Position numbers and translations under genes: made by a program. The notes beneath the pieces are model-generated. The model was not told where the DNA came from. It saw nothing but the letters and a program-made list of their open reading frames with translations, and searched no databases. A stretch of DNA of 64,000 bases, taken from assembly GCA_018268675.1 (NCBI GenBank), contig JAFDWB010000084.1:62001-126000 (forward strand). Reading direction: 5' to 3'. Position 1 is the first letter of the stretch. Each line of letters begins with the position of its first letter. The stretch comes from Actinomycetota bacterium. Its GTDB lineage: Bacteria > Actinomycetota > Thermoleophilia > Solirubrobacterales > 70-9. Positions 13,174-60,416 of this stretch are shown one piece after another.

Positions 13174-14184
13174 ATCCGCCTCGCGGGGCTCACCAAGAGA
13201 TACGGTGACGTGACCGCGGTCGCCGGGATCGATCTCGAGATCCGGGCCGGCGAGTTCTTCACCATGCTCGGACCTTCCGGCTCGGGCAAGACGACGACGC
13301 TGCGGATGATCGCCGGGTTCGAGGACCCGACGTCCGGGACGATCGAGCTGGCCGGGGTCGACGTCGCCGGCCTCCCGCCCTACGAGCGCGCCGTCAACAC
13401 GGTCTTTCAGGACTACGCGCTCTTCCCCCACATGACCGTCGCCGACAACGTCGCCTACGGGCTGAAAGTGGCGAAGGTCGACAAGGCCGAGCGGGCACGG
13501 CGGCGCGACGAGGCGCTGGCGATGGTGCGGCTGCCCGGCTACGGCGACCGCAAGCCGGCCGAGCTCTCCGGCGGCCAGCGCCAGCGGGTGGCCCTGGCGC
13601 GGGCGATCGTCAACCGGCCGCGGGTGCTGCTGCTCGACGAGCCGCTCGGGGCGCTCGACCTGAAGCTGCGCGAGCAGATGCAGACCGAGCTGAAGTCGAT
13701 CCAGGGGGAGGTCGGGATCACCTTCGTCTACGTCACCCACGACCAGGACGAGGCGCTGACGATGAGCGACCGGATCGCGGTCTTCAACGACGGGCGGATC
13801 GAGCAGGTCTCGACCCCGGAAGACCTCTACGAGCACCCGGTGAACGAGTTCGTCGCCGACTTCGTCGGGGTGTCGAACATCCTCGAACGGGACGGGGAGC
13901 GGTTCACGGTCCGGCCGGAGAAGATCGAGGTGCTGGCGCCGGGGGCGACCGCCGACGGTCTCGTCACCGAGCGCGGCCGGGTCGCCGGGATCGCCTACGC
14001 CGGGGCCGTGACCCGGTACACGGTGACGCTCGACGCGGGGGGAAGCTTGCAGTTGGTCAGACAGAACGTGGGAGAGGCGCCGGGAGCGGCACCGACCGCG
14101 GGGGCGGAGGTCGTCGTGGGATGGCGGCCGGAGCACGCGGCGCGGGTCTCCGGTGCAACGAACAAGGAGGAGGTAGCACCATGA
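13174..14184 (+). CDS. potA: spermidine/putrescine-type ABC transporter ATPase (start uncertain, possibly non-AUG)
   Basis: ATPase of a polyamine-type importer. Walker [12 protein letters not shown]-loop [11 protein letters not shown], signature [15 protein letters not shown], Walker [12 protein letters not shown]-loop VTHDQDEAL, then a TOBE-like C-terminus. The frame is open back to a stop at 13141, and the conserved first strand ([16 protein letters not shown]) lies upstream of the first canonical start, GTG 13210. Starting at the GTG would remove that strand and the A-loop Tyr. No ATG/GTG/TTG lies in between; ATC 13174, 12 nt after AGAGGGG, or ATA 13153 are candidates. First of four genes; its stop overlaps potD (ATGA). 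Confidence 0.85.
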
Positions 14185-15392
14185 GGGGACACAAGGGAAG
14201 CCCGGCGCGAACGGCATGGTTCATCGTCGCGGGCCTGGTCGCGTTCATGCTCGTGTTGGCCGGCTGCGGGGGCGGCGGGTCGAGCTCGGGCGAAAGCTCC
14301 GGCGGTGGGGGCGGTGAAGAACTGCAGAAGCTCGGCAAGGGCGAGGGTGAACTGAACCTGATCTCCTGGGCGGGCTACGTCGAACCGGAATGGGTGAAGC
14401 CGTTCGAACAGGAATCGGGCTGCAAAGTCAACGACAAGGTCGCGGGCACCTCCGACGAAATGGTGAAACTGATGGAGACCGGGCAATACGACGGGGTCTC
14501 CGCCTCGGGCAACGCGACGGCGCGCCTCTGGGCGGCCCACGAAGTGGCCCCGGTCAACGTCTCCTTGGTCCCCAACTACAAGACCGTGTTCGCCGATCTC
14601 AAAGGCCAGCCGTACAACACCTTCGAAGGGAAGCCGTACGGGATCCCGCACGGCCGCGGCGCCAACCTGCTGATGTGGAACAAGAACGACGTCAAGCCGC
14701 CGCCGACCTCCTGGGAAGTGACGCTCAACCCGAAGGTCGCGGCCAAGTACAAGGGCCACATCAGCCAGTACGACGACCCGATGTCGATCGCCGAAGGCGC
14801 GATCTACCTGAAGGCCCACGAACCGAAGCTGGGGATCGAAAACCCCTACGAGCTGAACGAAGAACAGTTCAACGCGACGGTCGAACTGATGAAGGAACAG
14901 AAGCCCTTCGTCGGCGAATACTGGTCGAGCGCCGAACAGCAGATCGCCGGCTTCGCCAACGGGTCGAACCAGGTCGGGACGACCTGGCAGTACCAGTACT
15001 TCGCCCTCAAAGGTGAAAACGAACCGGTGGCGGCGAGCCCGGAGAGCCAGGGCTTCCTGCCGAGGGAGGGGGCGACGGGGTGGTCTGATACCTGGATGAT
15101 CAGCGTCCACGCCAAGCACCCCAACTGCATGTACATGTGGATGAACTACATCATCAGCCCGAAGGCGAACGCCGAGGTGGCCGAATACTTCGGTGAGGCG
15201 CCGGCCCAGGAACTGGCCTGCGAACACACCAAAAACCCGAACTTCTGCCACGAATACCACGCCGAAGAACCGGCGTTCTGGAAACGGGTCTACTACTGGG
15301 AGACGCCGCTCGCCGAATGCAGTGAAGGCGGCGAAACCAACTGTATGGACTACAACGCCTGGGTCCGGGCCTGGACCGAAATCAAAGGCTAG
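14181..15392 (+). CDS. potD: polyamine-type ABC transporter substrate-binding lipoprotein
   Basis: 403 residues. A basic/hydrophobic leader ends in the lipobox LVLAGC; Cys is followed by a Gly/Ser linker. The mature part has [55 protein letters not shown] and [20 protein letters not shown], the pattern of PotD/family-1 polyamine receptors. It captures the ligand outside the membrane and delivers it to PotB/PotC. An unusual ~50-residue Cys-containing C-terminal extension ([27 protein letters not shown]) may form disulfides. Strong ribosome-binding site AAGGAGGAGG. 33 of 41 Glu codons are GAA, against 2 of 27 in potA. Confidence 0.93.
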
Positions 15393-22611: not shown

Positions 22612-23931
22612 ATGTCTGAATCGTCCCGGCTCGGCAGGGCCAGGGGAAGAGCGCTGCCGGCCGCATTCTTGGCCGCGGCGCTGGTCGCGATGCTCGCGCT
22701 TGCGCCGCTCGCCTCCGCCGCCACGCCAAATCCGATCGCGAGCGGCAGCACGACGCTCACCATCAACGGTGGCTTCAACAACCAGCTCAAGAAGGCCGGC
22801 ATCAAGCTCGCCGCGATCAAGCCGGCCAAGCTCAAAGGCACCAAGGCGACCTTCACGGTCACCGGCGGTGAAATCGAAGCGACCAACGGCCTCGGCACGA
22901 TCGCCCAGGGCGGCGGCCTGAAGCTGACCTGGGGCAAGAAGTCGGCCCCGGTGAAGGGCCTCGAACTGAACACCAAGGCCAAGTCCCTGAGCGCCACCGT
23001 GGGCGGCAAGAAGGTGAAGCTGGCGACGCTCTCCGGCGTCAAGTCGGCGCGCCTCGGCTTCGGCAACAGCATCACGACGGCGAACGTCAAGCTGACCAAG
23101 GCCGGCGCCAACGCGCTGAACCAGAAGCTGACCCCGCCCCCGACCAAGACCAAGGTCAAGAAGAACGGCAAGACCGTGACCAAGGTCGTGAAGACGATGC
23201 CGCCGTTCAAGGCGAACACGGTGCTCGGCAAGACCAACACCCAGGTCGAACCGAAGACCGACAACGTCCTGCCGACCGGCACGATGACCTACAACGGCGA
23301 CCCGACCCTGCTGGGCAAGCTCAAAGACGTCGGCGTCGAAGTCCAGACGATCAGCCCGACGACGCAGAGCGGGACCACGTTCAGCTCCGCGATCAGCGGC
23401 GGCACGATCTCGCCCCTCGGGACCAGCGGCCAGGTCAACAGCAGCGGCGGCCTGAAGCTGGTGCAGAAGATCGAAGGCGGCCCGACCACCACGATCACGC
23501 TCGCCGCGATCGGCGTCGACCTCGGGCAGAAGACGGCGGGCGTCGAAGTGATCGGCGAATCGAACGCCGAAACGGAAGGCAAAAAACCGCTGAACCTCGG
23601 CAACCTCGGGCGCAGCTCGATCGCCGACCTGACGATCACCAGCCTCACCCCGAACCCGGCGACGCGCACCGTGGCGGTCAACGCCACCGCGACGATCCAG
23701 GCAGTGGCCGCCGAAGTTCTGAACGGCTTCGTGAAGGTCTACGAGGGCGCCTATGCCGTGGGCGCGGCGCAGGCCATCGAGGCGAAAATCAAAAACCACG
23801 AACTTCCGGAACTGAAACCGGAAGAAATCAAGGCGATGGCCGAAAAAGCCGCTGCCGAAAGAGTGGCGAACGACCAGATCAAGTCGGGCGAATCGCTCGG
23901 CTCGTTCTCCTTCACCGCGACCGGCGAATAG
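22612..23931 (+). CDS. secreted two-repeat beta-rich surface protein
   Basis: 439 residues. A signal peptide (AFLAAALVAMLALAPLASAA) is followed by two diverged ~150-residue repeats, each starting with an LKKAG/LKDVG segment and containing a GGLKL strand (TIAQGGGLKLTWGKK and VNSSGGLKLVQKIEG). This architecture is frequent among exported proteins of this lineage and is distantly HtaA-like in feel, but no heme-binding motif is evident. A charged C-terminal stretch (KAMAEKAAAERVANDQ) follows. Good ribosome-binding site GGAGG before ATG 22612. About 20 of 22 Glu codons are GAA. It ends at a strong terminator. Function unknown, probably structural or wall-associated. Confidence 0.7.
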   Translation: MSESSRLGRARGRALPAAFLAAALVAMLALAPLASAATPNPIASGSTTLTINGGFNNQLKKAGIKLAAIKPAKLKGTKATFTVTGGEIEATNGLGTIAQGGGLKLTWGKKSAPVKGLELNTKAKSLSATVGGKKVKLATLSGVKSARLGFGNSITTANVKLTKAGANALNQKLTPPPTKTKVKKNGKTVTKVVKTMPPFKANTVLGKTNTQVEPKTDNVLPTGTMTYNGDPTLLGKLKDVGVEVQTISPTTQSGTTFSSAISGGTISPLGTSGQVNSSGGLKLVQKIEGGPTTTITLAAIGVDLGQKTAGVEVIGESNAETEGKKPLNLGNLGRSSIADLTITSLTPNPATRTVAVNATATIQAVAAEVLNGFVKVYEGAYAVGAAQAIEAKIKNHELPELKPEEIKAMAEKAAAERVANDQIKSGESLGSFSFTATGE

Positions 23932-25150: not shown

Positions 25151-26551
25151 GTGGGTCCGAGCAGGGACACGGGGCGCGCGAGCGCCCCGATCGACGTGGA
25201 GTCGAGGGAGGGCGGCGGGTCGCCGATCGACGCGGGGGCGCGGCGGCGCGCCGCGGTCGAGACCTTCGCCCAGCAGGAGGCGTCGCTGCGGCGCGCCGCG
25301 CTGCGCTACTCGATCTGCGCCGACGACGCCGAAGACGCGCTGCAGCGCGGGCTCGAGATCCTTCTCACCAAGGCGCCGTCCGGCGACGCCCGCGAGCTCG
25401 TCCGCTGGACCCACACCGTGGTCAAGCACGAGGCGCTCGCGGTGCGCGCCGAGCGCGAGCGACTCCTCGCCGGGCCCGCCGCCGCGACCACCGAGCCGGG
25501 CCGCGAGGACTGGGTCGCGATGCTGCCCGCAGAGGTCGCCGGGCCGGCCGAGCGGGCCGAGCGCCACGAGGCGATCGAGCGCAGCCGCGAGGCCCTGGCG
25601 ACGCTGAAGGCGCCCGAGCTGCGTGCCCTCGGTCTCCTCGCCGAGGGCTACTCCTACCGCGAGATCGCCGCGATCACGGGGTTCTCGACGCGGAAGGTGA
25701 ACCGTTCGGTCGCCGAGGGGCGGGAGCGCTTCCGCCGCTTCCTGCTCCGCCGCGAGGGCGGCGCCCGCTGCGCCGAGCTGGCGCCCGTCCTCTCCGCCTT
25801 CGCCGACGGTGAGGCTGCGGCGACCGACGTCGCCACGCTGCGCGACCACCTGCGGACCTGCGGCCACTGCCGGCGGACGCTGCGCGCCTACCGCGCCGTG
25901 CCCGGGGCCGCCGCGGCGCTCCTCCCCGTTCTGCCGCCGCCCCGCGGCGCGCTCGTCGGCCGCCTCCACGACGCCTACGCCGCCGTCGCGACCCGGCTCG
26001 GCGGCGGCGGGTCGGGCGCCTCGGACTCGACCCTCGGCGGGCTGGCGGCGGCAGGCGGCACGCGCGGCGCCGGGATGGCGGCGCTCGCCAAGGTGCTGGC
26101 GATCTGCGCCGGGACCGTCGGCGGGGCCGCCTGCTTGGCGACCGGGATCGTTCCGGCGCCGCTGCTCGACGCGCCCGAGCGCCAGGCTCCGGCCCACCGG
26201 GTCGCCCACCACCGCGCCCGACCCACGGCGCAGGACGCGGTGGTCGCCCCGACCACCACCTACGAACCGGCGCCGCCCACCGCCACCGAAGTCGAAGCGG
26301 AACCGCAGCCAGAGGAAACGGGGGCGCCGTCCCACGCCGCCGAGAAGAAGGCCCGGGAAGCCGAAGAACAGCGGGCCGCGGCGAGCGTCCCGCCGGCGAG
26401 CGAAAGCGGCGCGGTCGAATACACCGAACCGGCGCCGGTGGAAGCGGCGAGCCCGAGCTCGACCTCCTCGGCCGCGAGCTCGGGTGGCGGCGCGGGTGGC
26501 TCGACCGGCGGCGCGGCGGGCGGCAACGCCGCCGGGGAGTTCGGGCCATGA
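25151..26551 (+). CDS. ECF sigma-like factor fused to a membrane zinc-finger anti-sigma factor
   Basis: 466 residues from GTG 25151. Residues ~35-200 look like ECF sigma regions 2 and 4 (ALRYSICADDAEDALQRGLE; LLAEGYSYREIAAITGFSTR). Residues ~225-245 carry a ZAS-type motif (RDHLRTCGHCRRTLR). A transmembrane helix lies near 310-335 (LAKVLAICAGTVGGAACLAT). The outside part is Pro/Ala/Glu-rich and Ser/Gly-rich with no fold. Joining activator and inhibitor in one membrane chain implies release by proteolysis or conformational change. Glu codons are GAG before the helix (25 of 26) and GAA after it (12 of 16). Its stop overlaps the next gene (ATGA). Confidence 0.82.
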   Translation: MGPSRDTGRASAPIDVESREGGGSPIDAGARRRAAVETFAQQEASLRRAALRYSICADDAEDALQRGLEILLTKAPSGDARELVRWTHTVVKHEALAVRAERERLLAGPAAATTEPGREDWVAMLPAEVAGPAERAERHEAIERSREALATLKAPELRALGLLAEGYSYREIAAITGFSTRKVNRSVAEGRERFRRFLLRREGGARCAELAPVLSAFADGEAAATDVATLRDHLRTCGHCRRTLRAYRAVPGAAAALLPVLPPPRGALVGRLHDAYAAVATRLGGGGSGASDSTLGGLAAAGGTRGAGMAALAKVLAICAGTVGGAACLATGIVPAPLLDAPERQAPAHRVAHHRARPTAQDAVVAPTTTYEPAPPTATEVEAEPQPEETGAPSHAAEKKAREAEEQRAAASVPPASESGAVEYTEPAPVEAASPSSTSSAASSGGGAGGSTGGAAGGNAAGEFGP

Positions 26552-28650
26552 GGCGCCGCGTGCGCGCCACCGCGGCCGGCGCGCCCTGCCGCCCGGCCGC
26601 CTGGCTCGCGACGGCCCTGGTCGCGCTCGCGCTCGCCGCCGGTGCCCTACCGTCCCCTGCCGCGGGCTCCGACGGCTACTACCTGACCGGGCTCCACGTC
26701 GTCGGCGGCGACGTCTGGCACGCCGACAACTGGTTCCGGGTGGAGTGGGACCCCAACCCGCCCGGCACCAGCCCGGGGTCGGTCGTCGAATACGAAGTCG
26801 GCGGCCCGAACGGGGAGCTCATCCCCGGCCCGGTGGAATCGGTGGCGAACCCCTGGAACGTGGCGGTCGTCTCGGTCCCGCCCGTGCCCGGCGTCTACCG
26901 CTTCCAGGCGCGCAACTGGAAGGGCCCGACAAACTTCGGCCCCGACGCGCTCGGCCCCAAGGCCTCGGTGCCGCTCTACTTCGACGACGCGCGCCCGGCC
27001 GCGGTCTCGATCACCGCCCCCGCCTGGGTGGCCGCCGGCGCGCCGGTCCCGATCCGCATCGGCCGCCCCGGCGCGCTGCCGGTCTCCGGGATCGCCGGGT
27101 ACGCGGTCTCGATCGACGGCGCCGCGGCCGGCTCCCCGTGCGCCAGGCGCGAGCGCTGCGCTCCCGGCGAGGTCGACCTCGCGGGCGGGATCGGCGACGA
27201 CGCGCTCTCGCTGCCCGCGCCGCCGGAAGGCATCGGCTACGTCCACGCGGTCGCCGTGTCGGGGTCGGGGATGAGCTCGGCGCCGACCGCGACCGCCCCG
27301 ATCGGGGTCGACGGCACGCCGCCGCAGGTGCGGCTCGAAGGGGCGCCTGAGGGCTGGGCGGCGGGCCCGGTGCGGCTGACGGCGCTCGCCCTCGACCCGC
27401 TGTCCGGGATGGCCGCGGCGGGGCCGGGCGGCCCGGTGACCGCGATCGGGATCGAGGGCGACGCGCCGCGGGTGGCACCCGGCGGCGCCGCGTCGCTCAC
27501 CGTGGCCGGCGAGGGCTCCCACCGCGTCACCTTCTGGGCGCGGGACGCCGTCGGCAACGCGGGCGACGGCAGCCTCGCCTTCGCGCGGCCGGGGACGGCG
27601 ACCGTCCGCATCGACGAAAGCGGGCCGACCGTGCGCTTCGCCGCCCGCGATCCGGCCGACCCGGAGCGGATCGAGGCGACGGTCGCCGATTCCCTCTCCG
27701 GGCCCGCCGCCGACCGCGGCGCGATCGAGATCCGCCCGGTCGGCAGCCCGGGTCGCTTCCAGCCGTTGCCAACCGACGTGAGGCGGGGGCGGCTCGTCGC
27801 CCGCTGGAGCTCCGACGACTTCCCCCGCGGGCCTTACGAATTTCGCGCCGTCGGCTACGACGCGGCGGGGAACGCGACGGCCTCGACCGCGGGCGCCGAC
27901 GGTCCGGCACTCGTCCTCCGCAACCCGGTCAAGCGCGAGGCACGGCTCGCCTTCGGCTTCGGCGCGGCGAAGCTGGTGTTCCAGCGCTGCACGCGCGCCG
28001 ACGGCGGGCGCCGCTGCCGGCGGACCGTGATCCGGCCGTTCGCGCGCCGACCGGAGAGCCGCTCCGTCCCCTGCTGCCACGCCGCGCTGGTCGGCGGGCG
28101 CCTCACGGACGCGGGCGGGCATCCGCTGGCCGGGCAGCCGGTCGACGTCGTCGAGTCCTTCGCCCGCGGCGCCCGCCAGGGGACGCGGGCGACCACCGTC
28201 GCCACCGACGCCCGCGGACGGTTCCGGGCCTGGCTCGAGCCCGGGCCGAGCCGGCGGGTGAGCGCCGGGTTCGCGGGCACCGCCCGCCTCACCCGCGCCG
28301 GCGGGCGGCGGCTGCGACTGCGGGTCCGCGCCGGGGTGCGCCTGCGGGTGTCGAGCGCGCACGCGCGGGTCGGCGGCGCGCCGATCGTCTTCGGCGGGCG
28401 CGTCGTCCACCCGGAAGCGCGGATCCCGCCGACCGGCCTGCCGGTGCGGCTCGAGTTCCGGCTGGCGGGCATGGCCTGGTCGGAGTTCCGCACCCTGCAG
28501 ACCGACAGCGCCGGGCGCTTCAGCTACCCGTACTCGTTCAGCGACGACGACAGCGCCGGGGTCCGCTTCCTCTTCCGCGCCTCCGTCCCCGCGACCGGTG
28601 GCTGGGCGTATGCCCCGGCGACCTCGCGGCCGGTGGCGGTGACGGGCTGA
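26548..28650 (+). CDS. large secreted Ig-like/carboxypeptidase-regulatory-like protein
   Basis: 700 residues with an N-terminal signal (AWLATALVALALAAGALPSP). Several beta-sandwich-like units follow: DGTPPQVRLEGAPEGW, ESGPTVRFAARDPADPERIE and FRAVGYDAAGNATAS are typical of bacterial Ig-like repeats. The later LVGGRLTDAGGHPLAGQPVD and TDARGRFRAWLEPGPSRRV resemble carboxypeptidase-regulatory (transthyretin-like) repeats. No anchor is visible. It is translationally coupled (ATGA) to the sigma/anti-sigma fusion, so it may be its output or its extracellular partner. GAA is used in about a third of Glu codons, intermediate between cytosolic and exported genes. Confidence 0.75.
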   Translation: MRRRVRATAAGAPCRPAAWLATALVALALAAGALPSPAAGSDGYYLTGLHVVGGDVWHADNWFRVEWDPNPPGTSPGSVVEYEVGGPNGELIPGPVESVANPWNVAVVSVPPVPGVYRFQARNWKGPTNFGPDALGPKASVPLYFDDARPAAVSITAPAWVAAGAPVPIRIGRPGALPVSGIAGYAVSIDGAAAGSPCARRERCAPGEVDLAGGIGDDALSLPAPPEGIGYVHAVAVSGSGMSSAPTATAPIGVDGTPPQVRLEGAPEGWAAGPVRLTALALDPLSGMAAAGPGGPVTAIGIEGDAPRVAPGGAASLTVAGEGSHRVTFWARDAVGNAGDGSLAFARPGTATVRIDESGPTVRFAARDPADPERIEATVADSLSGPAADRGAIEIRPVGSPGRFQPLPTDVRRGRLVARWSSDDFPRGPYEFRAVGYDAAGNATASTAGADGPALVLRNPVKREARLAFGFGAAKLVFQRCTRADGGRRCRRTVIRPFARRPESRSVPCCHAALVGGRLTDAGGHPLAGQPVDVVESFARGARQGTRATTVATDARGRFRAWLEPGPSRRVSAGFAGTARLTRAGGRRLRLRVRAGVRLRVSSAHARVGGAPIVFGGRVVHPEARIPPTGLPVRLEFRLAGMAWSEFRTLQTDSAGRFSYPYSFSDDDSAGVRFLFRASVPATGGWAYAPATSRPVAVTG

Positions 28651-39802: not shown

Positions 39803-41884
39803 CTACAAAAGCCCGTCTTCGCGGAGATCGCTTTCGAGCATCGGCTCGAGGGTGCGGGCGAAGGTGGCGGTGAGGTGGTCTTTGTCGCGGTAGGTGAGCG
39901 CGTTGCCGATCACGGCGCGGCAGACTTCGCCGGGGCAGATGTCGGCGATGAAGCTGACGAGGTGGGTGTTGGGGGTGCTTTCGGCGGCGCGGACGTCGTA
40001 TTCGCGGTCCCATTCGCGGTGGCGGCGGAAGGCGCAGCGGGCGAGGTGCTGGATGTCTTCGGAGACGCAGCTGGGGACGTCGCCGGAGGCGGTCGGGTTG
40101 TCGCGGATCACCACCGTGCGGGGGCCGGCCGCCTGAATGCGGCGCAGCGTCCGCTTGTACCCCGCTTCCATCGCTGCCGCCGCCCCGTCCTCCTTCAGTT
40201 CTTCGCCGTGCGGACCGTACGGGGTGTATTCGGTGTCCCCGCTCATCAGGACGGTCACTGATTTGCCCCCCTGTTCGATCCGCTCGAGCGCCGACTGGCG
40301 CCACACGTCGCACTGTGAGTACTCGCGGTCTTCGACCATGCTGCGCACTTCGATTTCCTCCGGCGGGCATTCGGCCTTGGTCAGGACGATCAATCGCCAG
40401 TGGAGGTTTTCGGCCAGTTCGTCGACGGTCGGGAAGTACTGCATCGCGTGCGAGTCGCCGAACAGGATCAGGGTGCGTTCACCGTGCGGGTCACCGTAGA
40501 GGCACTTGTTCGAGTTGGTCCCTTCGATCCCGACCATGCAGCCTTCGTAGTAGCTGCGCCCGCGGTCGGCGCGGGCCTTCAGCGGGTTCGGCCGCAGGGC
40601 CACCGCGGTTTCCTGCGGGGTCGGCTGTTCGGGCAGGGCGGCGGCGCCCGGGACCTGGGAGAGCTTCGCCGTCGGCACCGTCGTCTGCGCCGCCCCGAGC
40701 GCGATCCCGACGCCGACCGCGACCACGGTACAGGCGAGGCCGAGGGCGATCGCCCGGTTCGGCAGCCGCCGCAGGGCGGGCGCGCGGCGGACCGGGTCCT
40801 CGATCAGCGTGTGGGTCAGCTGGGTCGGGACCCACGAGGCGGCGACCGCGGCGAGCCCGGCGACGACCGAGAGGCGCGGTCCCCAGATCGCGGCGGCGAA
40901 GACGATGAACGGCCAGTGCCAGAGGTACCACGAGTAGGAGATGCGGCCGACATAACGGACCGGCGCCAGCGAGAGGACACCGCCCGCCCCGGCACGGACC
41001 CCGGTGACGCCGCCGGCGCTCGCGGCGAGCGCCGTGCCGGAGAGGATCAACGCCGCGGCGCCGAGCGTCGGCACCAGGGCGGCGGTCCCCGGGAAGCTCG
41101 TCTGCGCGGTGAAGGCGAGGCTCGCGTAGACGATCGCCGCGACCCCTGCCCAGCCGAGCGCGACCGCGCCGAGCCGCGGCAGCCGCACCGCCCCGAGCAG
41201 CGCCAGCGCCGCGCCGAGGCCGAGCTCCCAGGCGCGCCCGAAGGTCGAGAAGTAGGCGAACGCGGGCTTCTCGCCGGTCAGGACGATGCCGTAGGCGAGC
41301 GAGCCGGCGAAGATCAGCGCCAGCACGACCCAGAGCACCGGGCGGACCGGGCGGCCGCGCCGCCGCCAGAGCCAGGTCGCGAGCAGCATCAGCCCCGGCC
41401 AGACGAGGTAGAACTGCTCCTCGATCGCCAGCGACCAGAGGTGGAGGACCGGGCTCGGTTCGAGCCCCTGGGCGAAATAGTCGACCGACTGGGCGGCGAA
41501 ATGCCAGTTGGCGACGTAGAGCGCGGAGCTGACGATGTCCCCGGCGACTTCGGTGTTGCGCAGCGGCGAGAGCAGCAGCATCGAGAGCACGCCGACCGCG
41601 GCCAGCAGCACCGCCGAGAGCGGCAGCAGGCGTTTCGCGCGGCGGGCGTAGAAGCCGCGCAGGGAGATCGTCCCGGAGCGGTCGAGCTCCCCCACCAGCA
41701 GGCGGGTGATCAGGAAGCCGGAGATGACGAAGAAGACGTCGACGCCGACGTAGCCGCCCGCCAGGAACGGCACCCCGGCGTGGCAGAGCAGCACGGCGAC
41801 GATCGCCACCGCCCGCAGCCCCTCGATGTCGGGGCGGAAGCGGCGGCCCGCCTCGGCTTCGTCAGGGCTTTTTCTTGGTTCCAT
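39803..41884 (-). CDS. OafA/YrhL-type membrane acyltransferase with SGNH domain
   Basis: 693 residues. Residues ~1-390 are a ten-helix acyltransferase-3 domain (FRPDIEGLRAVAIVAVLLCH, LAIEEQFYLVWPGLMLLATW, ISYSWYLWHWPFIVFAAAIW). The C-terminal extracytoplasmic part is SGNH-like: LILFGDSHAMQYFPTV holds the nucleophile Ser and DKDHLTATFARTLE the Asp-x-x-His. It O-acylates envelope glycans. Glu codons are 4 GAA of 12 in the membrane half but 23 of 28 in the SGNH half. It overlaps the esterase gene by 23 bp, forming an operon with it and ileS. Confidence 0.9.
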   Translation of the reverse strand: MEPRKSPDEAEAGRRFRPDIEGLRAVAIVAVLLCHAGVPFLAGGYVGVDVFFVISGFLITRLLVGELDRSGTISLRGFYARRAKRLLPLSAVLLAAVGVLSMLLLSPLRNTEVAGDIVSSALYVANWHFAAQSVDYFAQGLEPSPVLHLWSLAIEEQFYLVWPGLMLLATWLWRRRGRPVRPVLWVVLALIFAGSLAYGIVLTGEKPAFAYFSTFGRAWELGLGAALALLGAVRLPRLGAVALGWAGVAAIVYASLAFTAQTSFPGTAALVPTLGAAALILSGTALAASAGGVTGVRAGAGGVLSLAPVRYVGRISYSWYLWHWPFIVFAAAIWGPRLSVVAGLAAVAASWVPTQLTHTLIEDPVRRAPALRRLPNRAIALGLACTVVAVGVGIALGAAQTTVPTAKLSQVPGAAALPEQPTPQETAVALRPNPLKARADRGRSYYEGCMVGIEGTNSNKCLYGDPHGERTLILFGDSHAMQYFPTVDELAENLHWRLIVLTKAECPPEEIEVRSMVEDREYSQCDVWRQSALERIEQGGKSVTVLMSGDTEYTPYGPHGEELKEDGAAAAMEAGYKRTLRRIQAAGPRTVVIRDNPTASGDVPSCVSEDIQHLARCAFRRHREWDREYDVRAAESTPNTHLVSFIADICPGEVCRAVIGNALTYRDKDHLTATFARTLEPMLESDLREDGLL

Positions 41885-42698
41885 TGCTTATCTTGCGCGC
41901 CGCGCTCATCTTCCGCGCCGCGATCCGCGCCAGCCAGTGCATCGCGCGGGTGACCAGGAAGGGGCGCATGCGGTCGGTCGTGTGGCCGCCTGCCACCATC
42001 CACAGCTTCACCTGCGGGGAGCTGGCGGCGAACGTTTCGTTCATCGACGGCGGGACGACGTTGTCGGCGCGGCCCTGGATCACCAAGAGCGGCGCGAGCT
42101 CGGGGCGGAGCGCCGGCGAGAGCCGTTCGCGGGCGGCTTCGCTCATGCCCAGCGAGGTCCAGTATTCGGGCCCGTACGTCAGGGTCGGCCAATCCCAGGC
42201 GGCGAGGTCGGAGACCGGCGCCTTGGCGACCGCCGCCGAGACGAGTTCCTGGCCGGCGAGGAGCGACACCAGGGTGCCGCCGGCCGAGCTCCCGTAGGCG
42301 TAGACGCGGTCGAGCCCGTACCGCTGGCGCAGGCGGCGGGCTTCGGCGCGGACCCGTTCGACCGCCGCGGGGAGGTTGTCGAGCGGGTAGCTGACGTAGT
42401 GGGGGACGAAGCCGGCGGCGATCGCGCGTTCCCGCGTCAGCGGTTCGAAGGTCGGGTCGTCGTAGAGGAAGGAGCCGCCGTGGACGAGCAAGAGCTGCGG
42501 GCGTTCGATCGGGCCGACGACGCCGCCCGCGCCTTCTTCGCCACCCGCTTCTTCGCCGTAGCCCCCTTCGGTCGGGGGCGTTTCCGGCGGGGGGGCTCCG
42601 GGAGCGCCGGCTTCGACGGCGGCGAGCGCCGCGCCCGGGCAGGCGAGGAACAGGCAGAGCGCCGCGAACAGGGCCGCGACGTGGCGCGCGCGCCTCAA
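41862..42698 (-). CDS. secreted alpha/beta-hydrolase (esterase)
   Basis: 278 residues from TTG 42698, overlapping the ileS stop (TTGA). Signal peptide FAALCLFLACPGAALAA is followed by a Pro/Glu/Gly linker (PPTEGGYGEEAGGEEGAGG). Hydrolase core: oxyanion loop LLLVHGGSFLYDD, nucleophile elbow YAYGSSAGGTLVSLL, acid in VIQGRADNVVPPS and His in VAGGHTTDRMRPF, as in BD-FAE/peptidase S9-like esterases. It likely removes acyl groups from envelope polymers, complementing the adjacent acyltransferase. The basic C-terminus (ARKMSAARKISNGTKKKP) is encoded in the overlap. Confidence 0.85.
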   Translation of the reverse strand: MRRARHVAALFAALCLFLACPGAALAAVEAGAPGAPPPETPPTEGGYGEEAGGEEGAGGVVGPIERPQLLLVHGGSFLYDDPTFEPLTRERAIAAGFVPHYVSYPLDNLPAAVERVRAEARRLRQRYGLDRVYAYGSSAGGTLVSLLAGQELVSAAVAKAPVSDLAAWDWPTLTYGPEYWTSLGMSEAARERLSPALRPELAPLLVIQGRADNVVPPSMNETFAASSPQVKLWMVAGGHTTDRMRPFLVTRAMHWLARIAARKMSAARKISNGTKKKP

Positions 42699-45600
42699 AC
42701 CGCGCGGACCGAGATCCGCAGCTCGCGGCCGTCGATCGTGGTCGTCGTCGCGGTGCCGGCGTCGCCGTAGAGCGGGTCCTCGGGGCGGGCGGGCGCCGAC
42801 GGCGCCCCGTCGCCGGCGATGCTCGTCGCCAGGGTCTCCCCCGCGATGTAGGCCTCGTGCTCGCGGGCGACGTCGAGCAGCTCCGCGTCACCGGCGAGGT
42901 CGAGGTCGATCCGGTCGGTGATCTCGAGGCCCGCGTTCTTGCGCGCGTCCTGGACGGCGCGGACGATCTCGCGGGCGAGGCCCTCGCGGCGGAGCTCCTC
43001 GTCGATCTCCAGCTGCAGGGCGACCGCATGGCCTGCCTCGGCCTCCACCTCGTAGCCCTCGAGCGGCGCCAGCGCCAGGGTGAGGTCCTCGGCGTCGAGC
43101 GTGTGGTCGGAGCCGTCGATCGCGATCCCGACCGCGCCGCCTTCGGCGAGGGTCGCGGCGACCCGGCTCGCGTCGAGCGCCGCCACCGCGGCCGCGACCT
43201 GCGGCATGCGCTTGCCGAAGCGCGGCCCGAGCGTGCGGTAGTTCGGCTTCACCGTGTAGGAGACGAGCTCGCCCTCCTCGGCGACGAAGTCGAGCTCCTT
43301 CACGTTGAGCTCGCTCGTGACCAGATCGGCGAGCGCCTCGATCGCCGCCCGCTCGTCCTCGTTGGCGACGATCACGGCGCGGCGCAGCGGCTGGCGCACT
43401 TTCACCTTTCCGGCGGAGCGCGCCGCGTGGCCGAGGCGGACGGTGCGCTGCACGGCGGCCATCCCGGCTTCGAGGTCAGGGTCGAGGAGCGCCCCGTCGA
43501 CCTCCGGGAAGCTCGCCAGGTGGACCGAGTCGGGCGCGTCGCCGAACTCGCCCGCGGCGCCGCCCTGGAGGTTGCGGTAGATCTCGTCGGCGAGGAACGG
43601 GGTGAAGGGGGCGAGCAGCTTGGCGCTCTCGAGCAGGCAGGCGCGGAGCGTCGCGAAGGCCGCCCGGTCGCCGTCCCAGAAGCGCCGCCGCGAGAGCCGC
43701 ACATACCAGTTGGAGAGCTCCTCGACGAAGTCGGCGATCGCCCGCCCGGCGGTCGTGCAGTCGAAGTCGTCCATGCGCTCGCGCACGGTCGCGACCGTCG
43801 CCTGGAGGCGCGAGAGCGCCCAGCGGTCGAGGTCGGTCAGCTCCGGCTGTTCCTTATGGTCGCCAGGCGACCATAAGGAACAGCCGGCGGGGTCGATGCC
43901 CTCGGTCGCGTTCGCGTAGAGCACCCAGAACGAGTAGGTGTTCCAGAGGGTCAGCATGAACTGGCGGACCGACTCGCCGACCGTCTCCAGCGAGAAGCGG
44001 TACCCGGCCCAGGGCTGCTGGGTGGTCAGGTAGTACCAGCGGAAGGCGTCGGCGCCGTGGGCGGCCAGCACGTCCCAGGGGTCGACCACGTTGCCGCGGC
44101 TCTTCGACATCTTCTGCCCGTCGGGGTCGAGGATCAGCCCGAGGCAGACGCAGTTCTTGAAGCTCGACCGGTCGAAGAGGAGGGTCGACTCGGCGAGCAG
44201 GGTGTAGAACCAGCCGCGGGTCTGGTCCTGGGCCTCGCAGATGTAGTCGGCCGGGAAGCGCGCGGCGAACTCCTCCCGCCCCTCGAAGGGATAGTGGAAC
44301 TGCGCGAAGGGCATCGCGCCGCTGTCGTACCAGGTGTCGATCACCGAATCGACCCGGTGCATGTTCTCCCCGCACTCCGCGCAGCGGACGGTGACCTCAT
44401 CGATGTAGGGACGGTGCAGGTCGTCCGGAACTTCGCCGCCGGAGCGCTCGCGCAGCTCCTCCACCGAGCCGGCGCAGAAGCGCTCCTCACAGCCCTCGCC
44501 GGAGCAGACCCAGATCGGCAGCGGCGTCCCCCAGTAGCGGTCGCGGGAGAGCGCCCAGTCGACGTTGTTCTCCAGCCATTTGCCGAAGCGGCCGTGCTTG
44601 ACGTGTTCGGGGTGCCAGTTGATCGTCTCGTTGTTGGCGAGCAACTCCTCGCGCGCCGCCGAGGTGGCGACGTACCAGCTCGACTTGGCGTAGTAGAGGA
44701 GCGGCGTCCCACAGCGCCAGCAGTGCGGGTAGGCGTGCTCGTAGACCTGCTCGCGGAAGAGCAGCCCCCGGCGGTCGAGGTCGTCGATGAGGCGGCGCGT
44801 CGTCTCACTTCCCTTTACGAACTCGCCGGCGAAGCCGATGACTCGGTCGCCGAAGCGGCCTTCGAGCGTCACCGGGTTGTAGAGCGAGGTCCGCACCGTG
44901 GGGTCGAAGATGCCCGCGGCGGCGCCCGCCACGTAGTCGTCTTCGCCGAACGCCGGCGCGATGTGGACGAGGCCGGTGCCGTCCTCGGTGGTGACGAAGT
45001 CCCCGGCGATCACCGGGAAGGCGCCCCGCTTGCGGTCGCCGAGGTCGAAGATCGGACCCTCGTAGGTGAGGTCGAGGAGGTCCGATCCGGGCATCTCGGC
45101 GAGGACCTCGGCATCCTCCCCGAGCACCCGCCCAACCAGGTCCCGGGCGACCACGTACACGTTGCCGTCGAGGCGGGCGCGCGCGTAGGTGACGGAGGGA
45201 TTCACGGCGACGGCACCGTTGCCGGGGAGCGTCCAGGGCGTCGTCGTCCAGATCAGCAGGTACTCGTCGCCGGCGCCGGAGAGCGGGAACCGCACGTAGA
45301 TCGAGGGGTCCTTGACGTCCTCGTAGCCCTGCGCGACCTCGTGCGAGGAGAGCGCCGTACCGCAGCGCGGGCAGTAGGGAACGACCTTGTGACCCTCGTA
45401 GAGGCGGCCCTTGTCCCACAGCTGGCGCAGCGACCACCAGACCGACTCGATGTAGCGGTCCTCCAGGGTGACGTAGGGGTCGTCGAGGTCGACCCAGAAG
45501 CCGATCCGCTCGGTCAGCCGGTTCCACTCCTCGACGTACTCGAAGACCGACTCGCGGCAGCGTTGGTTGAACTCGGCGATCCCGAACTCCTCGATCTCCT

Positions 45601-45922
45601 GCTTGGAGGAGATGCCGAGCTGGCGTTCGACCTCGAGCTCTACCGGCAGCCCGTGGCAGTCCCACCCCGCTTTGCGAGGCACCAGGTACCCGCACATGGT
45701 GCGGTAGCGCGGGTAGATGTCCTTGAAGACGCGGGCGAGGACGTGGTGGGAGCCGGGACGGCCGTTGGCGGTCGGCGGGCCCTCGTAGAAGCTCCAGATC
45801 GGCGCGTCGGCGCGCTCGGCGAGGGTGCGGGCGAAGAGGTCCTGCTCGCGCCAGCGCTCGAGCACGCGCTGCTCGAGCTCGGGGAAGGACTGCTTCGGGT
45901 CGACGGGGGCGAAGCCGGACAT
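42695..45922 (-). CDS. ileS: isoleucyl-tRNA synthetase, IleRS2 type with GSHH signature
   Basis: 1075 residues from ATG 45922. IWSFYEGPPTANGRPGSHHV places GSHH at residues 57-60 where class I enzymes normally have HxGH; KMSKS is at 604-608; AGWDCHGLPVELEVE and DSVIDTWYDSGAMPFAQFHY are IleRS landmarks. CAEC and C-x-x-C zinc knuckles occur near residues 385 and 520. The C-terminal half (LEITDRIDLDLAGD) is of the eukaryote-like IleRS2 group, which is naturally mupirocin tolerant. A 45-bp perfect palindrome (43843-43887) adds ~15 in-frame residues near 679-693, between the catalytic and anticodon domains. First gene of an operon with the esterase and acyltransferase. Confidence 0.96.
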   Translation of the reverse strand: MSGFAPVDPKQSFPELEQRVLERWREQDLFARTLAERADAPIWSFYEGPPTANGRPGSHHVLARVFKDIYPRYRTMCGYLVPRKAGWDCHGLPVELEVERQLGISSKQEIEEFGIAEFNQRCRESVFEYVEEWNRLTERIGFWVDLDDPYVTLEDRYIESVWWSLRQLWDKGRLYEGHKVVPYCPRCGTALSSHEVAQGYEDVKDPSIYVRFPLSGAGDEYLLIWTTTPWTLPGNGAVAVNPSVTYARARLDGNVYVVARDLVGRVLGEDAEVLAEMPGSDLLDLTYEGPIFDLGDRKRGAFPVIAGDFVTTEDGTGLVHIAPAFGEDDYVAGAAAGIFDPTVRTSLYNPVTLEGRFGDRVIGFAGEFVKGSETTRRLIDDLDRRGLLFREQVYEHAYPHCWRCGTPLLYYAKSSWYVATSAAREELLANNETINWHPEHVKHGRFGKWLENNVDWALSRDRYWGTPLPIWVCSGEGCEERFCAGSVEELRERSGGEVPDDLHRPYIDEVTVRCAECGENMHRVDSVIDTWYDSGAMPFAQFHYPFEGREEFAARFPADYICEAQDQTRGWFYTLLAESTLLFDRSSFKNCVCLGLILDPDGQKMSKSRGNVVDPWDVLAAHGADAFRWYYLTTQQPWAGYRFSLETVGESVRQFMLTLWNTYSFWVLYANATEGIDPAGCSLWSPGDHKEQPELTDLDRWALSRLQATVATVRERMDDFDCTTAGRAIADFVEELSNWYVRLSRRRFWDGDRAAFATLRACLLESAKLLAPFTPFLADEIYRNLQGGAAGEFGDAPDSVHLASFPEVDGALLDPDLEAGMAAVQRTVRLGHAARSAGKVKVRQPLRRAVIVANEDERAAIEALADLVTSELNVKELDFVAEEGELVSYTVKPNYRTLGPRFGKRMPQVAAAVAALDASRVAATLAEGGAVGIAIDGSDHTLDAEDLTLALAPLEGYEVEAEAGHAVALQLEIDEELRREGLAREIVRAVQDARKNAGLEITDRIDLDLAGDAELLDVAREHEAYIAGETLATSIAGDGAPSAPARPEDPLYGDAGTATTTTIDGRELRISVRAV
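43843..43887. repeat. palindromic element B4 inserted in frame within ileS
   Basis: 22-bp perfect arms (43843-43864 and 43866-43887) around one base, with the B core CTGTTCCTTATGG. Length 45 bp, exactly 15 codons, keeping the ileS frame. On the coding strand it reads GCSLWSPGDHKEQP and introduces TTA, a very rare Leu codon in such DNA. Same family as B1, B2, B3 and B5. Confidence 0.9.
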
Positions 45923-55214: not shown

Positions 55215-56375
55215 ATGCACGCCGTGCTCCTCCCCCACCCGATGCGCGCGCTCCGCCGCCACCCCATCCCGTTCGCCCTCGCGCTGCTCGCGGCGCTCGC
55301 CTGCGCCTGCGGGGCGCTCGCCGCGACCGCCCGCGCCCAGGTCAGCTGGGTCATCCACGGGCACGGCTTCGGCCACGGGGTCGGGATGAGCGCCTATGGC
55401 GCCTACGGCTACGCGCTCCACGGCAAGGGCTACAAGTTCATCCTCGGCCACTACTACCCGGGGACCGCGCTGGGGACGCTGAGCGGCCCGCACGTCGTCC
55501 GCGTCCTCCTCGAAACCGCCCCCGGCGACATCACCTTCACCGAAGCGACCGGCGCCTGCGGGGTGGCGCTCGAACCGACCAGCACCTACCAGGCGCACCG
55601 GCTCGGCAACACGGTCGTGCTGCGGAGCTCCGCGGGCAAGCCGCTGAAACGCTGCGGCGGCACGCTTCGCGCGGCCGGCGCCGGCGGGATCATCGGCATC
55701 GGCGGCCTCGGGCGCTACCGCGGCGCGCTCGAAGTCGTCCCGACCGGCGCGAGCCGGCTGAACGTCGTCAACGCGCTCGCCCTCGACCAGTACGTGAAAG
55801 GCGTGATCCCGAACGAGTCGCCGCCCTCCTGGCCGATGGCGGAGCTGAAGGCGCAGGCGGTGGCCTCGCGGTCCTTCGCGCTCACCGGCGGGGTCGGCGG
55901 CGACGGCTTCGAACTGTACGCGGACACCCGCAGCCAGGTCTACAAAGGGCTCGAATCGGAGTACACGACCTCCGACGAAGCCGCCGAACAGACCGCGGGG
56001 CAGGTGCTGATGTACGAAGGGAATGTCGCCGAGACGCTCTTCTCCGCCTGCTCGGGGGGCAAAACCGAGAGCATGCAGAACGTCTTCGGCACCGCGATCC
56101 CGTACCTGGTCGGCGTCCCCGACCCCTACGACAGCCTCTGCCCGCTGCACGAATGGACGCTCAACTTCAGCGGCCCGGAAATCAGCGCCAAGCTCGCCGG
56201 GCTGCTCCAGGGGCGGCTGAAGCAGGTGGCGATCACGAAGACCGGCTACTCGCCGCGGATCATCGAAGCCAAGCTCTACGGGACCGGCGGCGTGACCACG
56301 GTGACCGGGGAACAACTCGAGATCGCGCTGGGCGGATACTCCACCTGGATGACCTTCGAAAAGGTGGTCAAGTGA
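55215..56375 (+). CDS. secreted SpoIID/LytB-domain protein
   Basis: About 386 residues; ATG 55215 or, giving a tidier signal peptide, ATG 55242. Leader LALLAALACACGALAATARA, then IHGHGFGHGVGMSAYGAYGY, NALALDQYVKGVIPNESPPS, MAELKAQAVASRSFAL and LFSACSGGKTESMQNVFG, the SpoIID core (lytic transglycosylase-like wall remodelling in sporulating Firmicutes; a wall role in actinobacteria). No choline- or wall-binding repeats. About 14 of 20 Glu codons are GAA. Its stop overlaps the next gene (GTGA). Confidence 0.87.
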   Translation: MHAVLLPHPMRALRRHPIPFALALLAALACACGALAATARAQVSWVIHGHGFGHGVGMSAYGAYGYALHGKGYKFILGHYYPGTALGTLSGPHVVRVLLETAPGDITFTEATGACGVALEPTSTYQAHRLGNTVVLRSSAGKPLKRCGGTLRAAGAGGIIGIGGLGRYRGALEVVPTGASRLNVVNALALDQYVKGVIPNESPPSWPMAELKAQAVASRSFALTGGVGGDGFELYADTRSQVYKGLESEYTTSDEAAEQTAGQVLMYEGNVAETLFSACSGGKTESMQNVFGTAIPYLVGVPDPYDSLCPLHEWTLNFSGPEISAKLAGLLQGRLKQVAITKTGYSPRIIEAKLYGTGGVTTVTGEQLEIALGGYSTWMTFEKVVK

Positions 56376-58760: not shown

Positions 58761-60416
58761 CTACTTGAATTCGAAGCTCGCCAGGTCCTGGCCGAAGCTC
58801 GGCGTGAAGACGACGTTTTCCAGGTTGATCGCGCTGGAGACGAAGGTCGAGGCGGTGCTCGTCCCGTACGGGGCCATCGGCGCCTGTTCCATGAATTCCT
58901 TGTCGAGCTGCGCGTAGCCCGCTTCCTGCTGGGGCCCGAGCGGTTCTTCGCCGAGTTCGGCGATCTTCTTGCTCAGGGCCGGGTCGGCGAAGCGGCTGAG
59001 GTTGGTGCCGTTGGTCGGCGCGATCGATTCTTCGGCCAAGAGCGGCTGGAAGAAGCCGTTCGGGCTCGGGTATTCGAGGAACCAGTTCGCCCAGCCGGTA
59101 TCGAGTTCCGGGGTGGAGCTGTTGGTGATCACGGTGAAGTAGTTGTCGGGCGAGAGGACCTTCATGTTCACCTTGAAGCCGAGTTCTTCTAGCACCCCGC
59201 CGTAGTAGGTGCCGGCGGCCTTGGAGGGTTCTTCGCTGTCGGTCCAGACGGCGATTTCCTTGGTGCTGGGGTGCGCTTCGGCGATCAGTTCTTTCGCCTT
59301 CTTCAGGTCGTGCGGGTAGAGGTTGATCTTCGCGTAGCCCGGCATCCCCGGCGGCAGGATCTGCTGGCCGGCTTCGAGGCGCCCCGAGTAGATCCGTTCC
59401 AGCGCCGCCGGGTCGATCGCGTAGTTGACCGCCTGGCGAACCTTGACGTCGTCGAACGGCGCCTGCCGCGTGTTCATCCAGAAGAAGTAGTTGCTGAAGG
59501 TGGGCTCGACCCGGAACTGGGTGCCGCCGTATTTGGCGAGGACCGACTGGTAGCGGTCGGGCGGCAGTTCGTTGCCCATCCAGTCGATCTTGCCCGCTTC
59601 GACTTCGTTCACCTCGGTCTGCGGGTTGCGCAGCACCTGGATCTTGATCTTGTCGACGTGGCCGGAGGGCAGCTGCGGCATCAGCCTGCCGTTGTTCTTC
59701 GCCCACTGCGGGTTGCGTTCGTATTCCCAGCCGCGGCCGGGCTGGGAGGAGGTGATGACGTAGGGGCCGGTGGCGGGCGGCGGGTTGGCGGAGAGGTCTT
59801 CGACCGGGGTCTTGGCCGGCAGCAGGGCGACGTAGGGGAGCGCCAGCTCGCTGGTGAAGCTGCCGTCGGGGGCGGTCAGGTGGATCGTGATCTGCCCCGT
59901 CTTGTCGTCGGTTTCGATCCCCGGGATGCCGCCCTTTTTCGTCTTCATGAAATGGGGCGCGCCGACGATCCCTTCGTAGAACGGGGAGCCGCCGGAGTTG
60001 AGGGCGAAGACGCGTTCCAGCGCGTGGGTGAAGTCGCTCGCGACCACCGGTTCGCCGTTCGAGTACCGCAGGCCCTTCCGCAGGGTCAGGGCGTAGGTCT
60101 TGCCGCCGTCACTCACCTTGGGGAGCGCCGTCGCCAGGCCGGGGATCACCTTGCCGCCCGCCTGACCGCTTTCGTGGGCGTAGGTGAGCAGCGGGATGTA
60201 GGTGTCGTAGGTGGCGTTCCAGCCTTCCAGGGTGTGGGACAGGGCCGGGTCGAGATAGTCGGGGAAGGCGGCGTAGGCGCCGATCAGGGTGCCGCCTTCG
60301 TGGCCGCCGGAAGTGCTCGAGGAGGAGCCCGAGGAGCTCCCGCCCCCGCAGGCGACGAGGGTGAGCGCCGCGAGCGCGGCCGCCGCGGCGAGGAGCGTCG
60401 ACTTTCTGAGGTCCAT
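58761..60416 (-). CDS. oligopeptide/dipeptide-type ABC substrate-binding lipoprotein
   Basis: 551 residues. Lipobox LTLVAC followed by a Gly/Ser linker; mature start GGTLIGAYAAFPDYLDPALS. SBP family 5 features: GLATALPKVSDGGKTYALTL, RKGLRYSNGEPVVASDFTHA, VRQAVNYAIDPAALERIYSG and GWANWFLEYPSPNGFFQPLL. It binds peptides or similar ligands outside the membrane. No permease or ATPase genes adjoin, so it is an orphan receptor here. Glu codons are predominantly GAA. Confidence 0.92.
   Translation of the reverse strand: MDLRKSTLLAAAAALAALTLVACGGGSSSGSSSSTSGGHEGGTLIGAYAAFPDYLDPALSHTLEGWNATYDTYIPLLTYAHESGQAGGKVIPGLATALPKVSDGGKTYALTLRKGLRYSNGEPVVASDFTHALERVFALNSGGSPFYEGIVGAPHFMKTKKGGIPGIETDDKTGQITIHLTAPDGSFTSELALPYVALLPAKTPVEDLSANPPPATGPYVITSSQPGRGWEYERNPQWAKNNGRLMPQLPSGHVDKIKIQVLRNPQTEVNEVEAGKIDWMGNELPPDRYQSVLAKYGGTQFRVEPTFSNYFFWMNTRQAPFDDVKVRQAVNYAIDPAALERIYSGRLEAGQQILPPGMPGYAKINLYPHDLKKAKELIAEAHPSTKEIAVWTDSEEPSKAAGTYYGGVLEELGFKVNMKVLSPDNYFTVITNSSTPELDTGWANWFLEYPSPNGFFQPLLAEESIAPTNGTNLSRFADPALSKKIAELGEEPLGPQQEAGYAQLDKEFMEQAPMAPYGTSTASTFVSSAINLENVVFTPSFGQDLASFEFK

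Follow-up and report, generated by a model that had tools for sequence, protein, structure and literature searches.

Glutamate codons sorted by membrane side in a bacterial clade carrying an unusual tRNA(UUC)

Results

The fusion gene and its neighbours in the window

The window analysed here, a 64,000-nucleotide stretch of a draft genome of an Actinomycetota bacterium (order Solirubrobacterales), contains a gene for a sigma/anti-sigma-like fusion protein in which the choice between the glutamate (Glu) codons GAA and GAG changes at the predicted transmembrane helix. The first-pass annotation had counted GAA in 1 of 26 Glu codons before the helix and in 12 of 16 after it, and an exact recount gave the same numbers (Fisher p = 1.9e-6). 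It had proposed that Glu codon choice tracks protein export and switches within genes, and its counts for other genes were correct almost to the codon. Those for potA (2 of 27) and potD (33 of 41) were unchanged; the secreted protein at 22.7 kb, for which about 20 of 22 had been claimed, has 19 of 21; and the outer half of an acyltransferase has 23 of 28 as claimed, while its membrane half, put at 4 of 12, came to 2 of 8 up to the last helix. The window is G000:C82:62001-126000 (GC content 72%), where G000 is a 4.2 Mb draft in 95 contigs that is 97% complete. Membrane helices and signal peptides, here and below, were predicted from hydropathy and the positive-inside rule. The features are as follows.

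25151..26551, + strand: sigma/anti-sigma-like fusion; GAA 1/26 before the helix, 12/16 after it
26093..26152, + strand: predicted transmembrane helix of the fusion (amino acids 315-334, from hydropathy), the switch point
13210..14184, + strand: PotA-like ATPase, cytosolic; GAA 2, GAG 25
14181..15392, + strand: PotD-like lipoprotein, outside; GAA 33, GAG 8; aspartate (Asp) 2.2%, Glu 10.2%
22669..23931 (start perhaps 22612), + strand: secreted protein; GAA 19, GAG 2
39803..41809, - strand: membrane acyltransferase whose outer half is SGNH-like; GAA 2/8 as far as the last helix, 23/28 beyond
41862..42698, - strand: signal-peptide protein; GAA 17, GAG 1
42695..45922, - strand: large cytosolic protein adjoining the preceding gene, in contrast to it; GAA 8, GAG 86
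55215..56375, + strand: signal-peptide protein; GAA 14, GAG 6
58761..60416, - strand: oligopeptide-type substrate-binding lipoprotein; GAA 34, GAG 3
26560..28650, + strand: apparent secreted protein that breaks the rule; GAA 8, GAG 16

Glu codons are sorted throughout the genome

Genome-wide counts for G000 cover 1.75 Mb of its sequence, in which 1538 genes were called. The codon model used for gene calling merged GAA and GAG into one symbol, so that gene calling could not create the effect. In cytosolic proteins (no helix), GAA accounted for 3230 of 23655 Glu codons (0.137; 95% range 0.125-0.148, genes resampled), compared with 2321 of 3390 (0.685; 95% range 0.62-0.75, genes resampled) in the mature outside parts of signal-peptide proteins. 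Lipoproteins showed the strongest effect, with a GAA fraction of 0.80. The proposed link to export was borne out, and it is stronger genome-wide than had been claimed.

The sorting is confined to Glu. Between cytosolic and exported sets, lysine (Lys) AAA went from 0.15 to 0.19, glutamine CAA from 0.05 to 0.06 and Asp GAT from 0.09 to 0.11, and all four-fold boxes were near-constant. Local GC content and recent transfer, which the first-pass annotation had itself allowed for as explanations, are excluded because no other codon moves. Composition near the codon predicts GAA to some extent (area under the curve 0.68), but a log-odds of 2.26 out of 2.62 was left after adjusting for both flanking codons and the composition of the surrounding ±8 residues; codon or composition context has a real but minor effect and was rejected as the main cause. 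Avoidance of internal Shine-Dalgarno-like GAGG, suggested earlier as a driver, was likewise rejected because the bias is near-equal for every next base, with exported GAA fractions of 0.71 before G, 0.69 before A, 0.74 before T and 0.60 before C.

Codon choice follows the final side of the residue

Single genes switch in both directions. FtsH uses GAA at 6 of 8 Glu codons in its outer loop and returns to GAG in its cytosolic part (GAA 4 of 53), a histidine kinase does the same (5/7 outer, 4/21 cytosolic), and several membrane acyltransferases switch the opposite way. These within-gene switches contradict gene-level or mRNA-targeting signals. Along signal-peptide proteins, the GAA fraction is 0.21 (8/38) in the n-region, reaches 0.74-0.79 by 10-20 codons past the hydrophobic helix of the signal and stays at about 0.7 to the end of the protein, and the switch falls within 5-15 codons of the helix. 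The ribosome tunnel holds some 30-40 residues. As GAA is already high while the signal helix is still in the tunnel, docking of the ribosome cannot set codon choice, and GAG is the codon used in cytosolic segments directly after a helix, which a docked ribosome translates. Among the polytopic proteins whose topology is clearest, the GAA fraction was 0.57 in outer loops versus 0.25 in inner loops, a blur for which the simple topology prediction accounts in part. Codon choice thus tracks the side of the membrane on which the residue ends up, not the state of the ribosome.

Sorting is limited to one clade

The first-pass annotation had called for a repeat in related genomes. This succeeded within the genus, where a second genome (G150) has a cytosolic GAA fraction of 0.147 and 56 GAA of 83 Glu codons in exported parts, and the pooled short loci of the genus agree. 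Other genera of the family showed no sorting, with exported GAA at 7/109 in G162, 14/84 in G169 and 43/152 in G183 (cytosolic 0.26 in the last). Among 80 named loci around potA homologues, sorting was seen in one only, L104, from a Solirubrobacterales genome; those of Streptomyces, Pseudomonas, Chloroflexi, other actinobacteria and most Thermoleophilia had none.

An unusual tRNA(UUC) accompanies the sorting

Outside the window, at G000:C40:12115-12210 (L268:1501-1596), lies a transfer RNA (tRNA) gene of 96 nt with anticodon UUC and an extra hairpin inside the D-loop. Without the hairpin, its best match is the arginine (Arg) tRNA, tRNA-Arg(ACG), of the same genome. Across ten distinct sequences of this odd tRNA all 28 pairs hold in each, and seven double-sided changes, three of them in the hairpin, lend support from covariation to the structure. 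The anticodon loop CTTTCAA is invariant and places A37 after UUC, as in canonical tRNA-Glu(UUC). Major Glu determinants of Escherichia coli are U11-A24, U13-G22 and the absence of residue 47 (PMC9976931); the odd tRNA has none of these, its D-stem being GCTC/GAGC and its variable loop the five bases AGGTC, and it has C2-G71. ARAGORN mislabels most copies (Pro, Thr or no type), so that annotation would hide this tRNA. In several genomes of the genus and its sister genus the gene adjoins the same type of short-chain dehydrogenase gene, and no gene for a charging or partner enzyme was seen among its neighbours.

A pattern search of 61 genomes, with tRNA types read by eye from the matched strings, found the odd tRNA in all three sister-genus genomes and, within the genus itself, in 11 out of 12, the exception being an assembly of 78% completeness. 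The canonical tRNA-Glu(UUC) was never found alongside the odd one, within the limit that a very divergent tRNA could escape such a search; of the family's 22 remaining genomes about 18 show the canonical type, which most of its other genera keep. The ordinary tRNA-Glu(CUC) was present in all six genomes examined. G000, G150, the pooled genus loci and L104/G206, in which sorting was seen, all carry the odd tRNA, and neither G162, G169 and G183 nor the named genomes lacking it show sorting; seven genomes without sorting gave only partial, tRNA-Arg-like matches. L104 served as a blind test, since its sorting was found first and the full-length odd tRNA in its genome afterwards. Replacement of the canonical tRNA is the likely cause of the sorting.

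Changes in the glutamyl-tRNA synthetase (GluRS) were rejected as an explanation: only scattered substitutions were seen, the neatest being an L-to-M change at alignment residue 61 shared by the two genera that have the odd tRNA. A short second GluRS-like gene, perhaps GluQ-RS, occurs in several sister genera; this genus lacks it, but so do some genera that do not have the odd tRNA. The 3' half of that tRNA recurs in partial copies at G154:C40:57624, G156:C176:21865 and 31552, G151:C208:16990 and G159:C170:5557; they are often identical over 42-53 bases and look like attachment sites of integrating elements. Another, at G000:C82:342239-342285, is diverged (83%).

GAA reads as an acidic residue but is not used as an equivalent of GAG

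Alignment columns at cytosolic GAA fit Glu best by 106 nats (Glu 200 versus Asp 93), and those at exported GAA favour Glu weakly (37 versus 31). Where exported homologues have Glu, G000 has GAA at 0.23 and GAG at 0.09. Around exported GAA, Lys and Arg are enriched and Asp and Glu avoided at ±3 and 4, as expected for an acid; a neutral product was rejected on this charge-neighbour test. GAA therefore appears, from these alignments and neighbours, still to be read as an acidic, Glu-like residue.

Exported proteins have acquired this residue partly in place of Asp, which makes up 3.9% of them versus 7.2% in family controls, while GAA is 4.4% of their codons. PotD, with the composition listed above, departs from the means of 6.5% Asp and 4.5% Glu in 70 homologues; the composition of cytosolic PotA is ordinary. 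The GAA share of a gene falls as its Asp content rises (rho -0.55), being highest where Asp is least, and at columns where close PotD homologues have mainly Asp, this genome has asparagine (Asn) 8 times, GAA 6 times and Asp only 4 times. The loss of Asp together with the gain of GAA indicates that GAA has taken over tolerant acidic positions outside from both Asp and GAG. Overall, exported Asp is roughly halved relative to relatives, with Asn, GAA, serine and threonine in its place, and cytosolic Asp is unchanged.

Exported paralogues at 35% identity agree in their Glu codons with a kappa of 0.6, compared with at most 0.30, near-random, for other synonymous pairs. They share 196 codon matches against 156 ± 7 in within-gene shuffles, none of 500 shuffles reaching that number. 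The corresponding kappa for cytosolic proteins is 0.06. PotD of G000 and of L104 agree in codon at all 11 shared Glu. Exported GAA and GAG sites are thus conserved in the manner of two different residues.

Catalytic motifs were picked from known families, in targeted rather than exhaustive tests, and exported families were assigned from motifs. In four exported glycosidases both catalytic Glu are GAG (8/8), whereas the other Glu are 60 GAA and 12 GAG (p = 4e-6). GAG is also kept by two sugar-dehydrogenase-like proteins in their YEEI motif, by two thioredoxin-like proteins at the Glu that follows WCxxC and by two deacetylase-like proteins in GDEIGxH. Among cytosolic proteins, Walker B, aldehyde dehydrogenase and HExxH motifs have GAG for their Glu in 40 of 40 cases (chance about 0.003 at the genome's own GAA rate), compared with 84 GAG and 44 GAA among 128 in other genomes. 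GAA is avoided at the catalytic positions examined, as expected of an ambiguous sense codon. The sorting, and the odd tRNA in every tested genome that shows it, suggest that in this clade GAA and GAG are no longer equivalent.

Discussion

The reading that we put first, with about an even chance of being right, is that the tRNA replacement made GAA the less dependable Glu codon and that selection then sorted both codons. After loss of the ordinary tRNA-Glu(UUC), GAA would be read by the odd tRNA, which has a tRNA-Arg-like body and a D-loop hairpin and lacks most of the usual Glu identity elements, and GAG by the ordinary tRNA-Glu(CUC). The residue at GAA would be acidic and Glu-like, yet less dependable than that at GAG, mixed charging or misreading being the probable reason. 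Selection would then act residue by residue, retaining GAG where Glu is functional or the domain folds in the cytosol, and placing GAA at tolerant positions outside the membrane, many former Asp included. A less dependable GAA would account for the GAG of cytosolic and catalytic positions. We infer that the odd tRNA is the sole reader of GAA and that its product is different; GAA may be favoured outside through faster, cheaper or regulated decoding, or by the usefulness of an altered residue.

Several observations weigh against this reading. Low fidelity by itself leaves unexplained the rise of GAA to 0.7-0.8 outside in the face of strong GC pressure. Some highly conserved structural Glu, on both sides of the membrane, are GAA, and exported conserved columns show no clear depletion of this codon (21 GAA, 7 GAG). 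The link between tRNA and sorting draws on the sister genus (G166, G173 and G178) through its tRNA alone.

It is possible, though we think it rather unlikely, that GAA is plain, accurate Glu and that the odd tRNA alters only the speed or regulation of decoding, for example by envelope state, exported segments having gathered GAA accordingly. Such selection at the codon level could also draw Asp to GAA, and GAA sites do match Glu in homologues and behave as acidic. It fits poorly with a boundary that is drawn sharply at the level of the residue, even in short outer loops and in cytosolic stretches following a helix, with the GAG of catalytic Glu in GAA-rich exported genes, and with the coherence of GAA and GAG between paralogues.

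More doubtful is the broader claim that GAA stands, entirely or as a fixed mixture, for a residue that differs chemically from the Glu at GAG, is delivered by the tRNA with the D-loop hairpin and serves mostly outside the membrane; if true, the use of this genetic code would be partitioned between cell compartments. Its specific form, a non-standard acidic residue near Glu that is useful outside but no substitute for catalytic Glu, seems to us improbable. The differing behaviour of GAA and GAG in exported proteins, the replacement there of both Asp and Glu by GAA and the lack of most Glu identity elements in the tRNA speak for it; but no partner enzyme adjoins the tRNA, cytosolic GAA and GAG exchange almost freely, and the proposal comes from sequence.

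Export-coupled translation of the kind proposed by the first-pass annotation, in which a membrane-bound ribosome would prefer GAA because of rate, local tRNA pool or pausing, is very unlikely. Although the effect does concern exported segments, and lipoproteins most, this mechanism would require the change to trail the helix by 30-40 codons and is largely refuted by the position of the switch: the GAA fraction is up while the signal is still in the tunnel, and it drops in cytosolic stretches that docked ribosomes translate. Translation rate and export-linked mRNA features also fit poorly as causes because functional Glu is GAG on both sides of the membrane, and the effect is limited to a clade and tied to a tRNA. 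Outright reassignment of GAA to another of the twenty amino acids is more improbable still; a strange tRNA does stand in for the normal one, but columns and exchange patterns indicate Glu, and no other amino acid exchanges with GAA at the level of self-exchange. An artefact of amino-acid context, local GC, transfer or contamination is the least credible of all and already refuted as the main cause: nearby composition does predict GAA to some extent, but most of the log-odds survives adjustment, all other codons are flat, adjacent genes differ and the sorting recurs in other genomes of the genus.

Ambiguous decoding of CUG is known in Candida and related yeasts (discussed in PMC8629427). The present case resembles it in having a deviant tRNA for one sense codon and a codon that leaves positions where ambiguity would harm; in those yeasts, however, the ambiguity is between Ser and Leu and was shown experimentally, whereas here a Glu-like meaning is kept, the sorting is by membrane side and the evidence is genomic. 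The bacterial sense-codon reassignments found by Codetta, in which Arg codons change amino acid (PMC8629427), share a lineage-limited tRNA change with a shift in codon use but not the retention of a Glu-like meaning; the full text of that paper mentions GAA once and neither glutamate nor Solirubrobacter. Natural tRNAs with unusual arms have been reviewed (PMC7609411), with no tRNA-Glu variant in the main text; here it is a tRNA with anticodon UUC whose D-loop holds the extra hairpin. Codon choice has also been linked to export through rare codons at the beginning of secreted genes (PMC2833160) and through pausing after signal sequences, but those effects concern gene starts or slow codons generally, whereas the present one touches a single codon pair and extends over the entire outside segment. 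No described case of such Glu codon sorting was found in the open-access papers searched.

Under selection for translational accuracy, the more accurate codon is kept at critical or conserved sites. The sorting described here resembles this, but it is much stronger, concerns Glu only and is split by membrane side. Synonymous codons are assumed to give the same protein, and here one pair is sorted by membrane side and function. This is a natural example of codon usage from which topology and active sites can be predicted. With a defined tRNA and sister genera with and without it, the origin of new codon meanings becomes directly testable.

Exceptions to the sorting

Apparent exceptions were mostly prediction errors, the identities being judged from sequence alone. 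Low-GAA genes called as having signal peptides were mostly false calls or cytosol-facing anchors (ATP synthase b, RmuC), with dehydrogenases, whose Rossmann fold resembles a signal, also among them. High-GAA genes called cytosolic mostly look like missed lipoproteins or secreted proteins with a miscalled start. The rule-breaking gene of the window (26560-28650) is large, has a clear signal and lies directly downstream of the sigma/anti-sigma gene. At G000:C15:2890-5305 (L011), a lipoprotein with 13 GAA and 30 GAG adjoins a Dyp-peroxidase-like protein with a twin-arginine translocation (Tat) signal and GAA at 3 of 19 Glu codons after residue 40; this is perhaps an EfeOB iron-uptake pair that, though exported, keeps GAG and may have been imported recently. 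Tat substrates proved too few and too mixed to serve as a test of final location (multicopper oxidase 11/17 GAA, Dyp-type peroxidase 3/22). A phage tape-measure-like gene at G000:C93:118648-122586 has 69 GAA and 32 GAG, with AAA also raised (22/71), probably reflecting foreign codon use rather than an effect of export.
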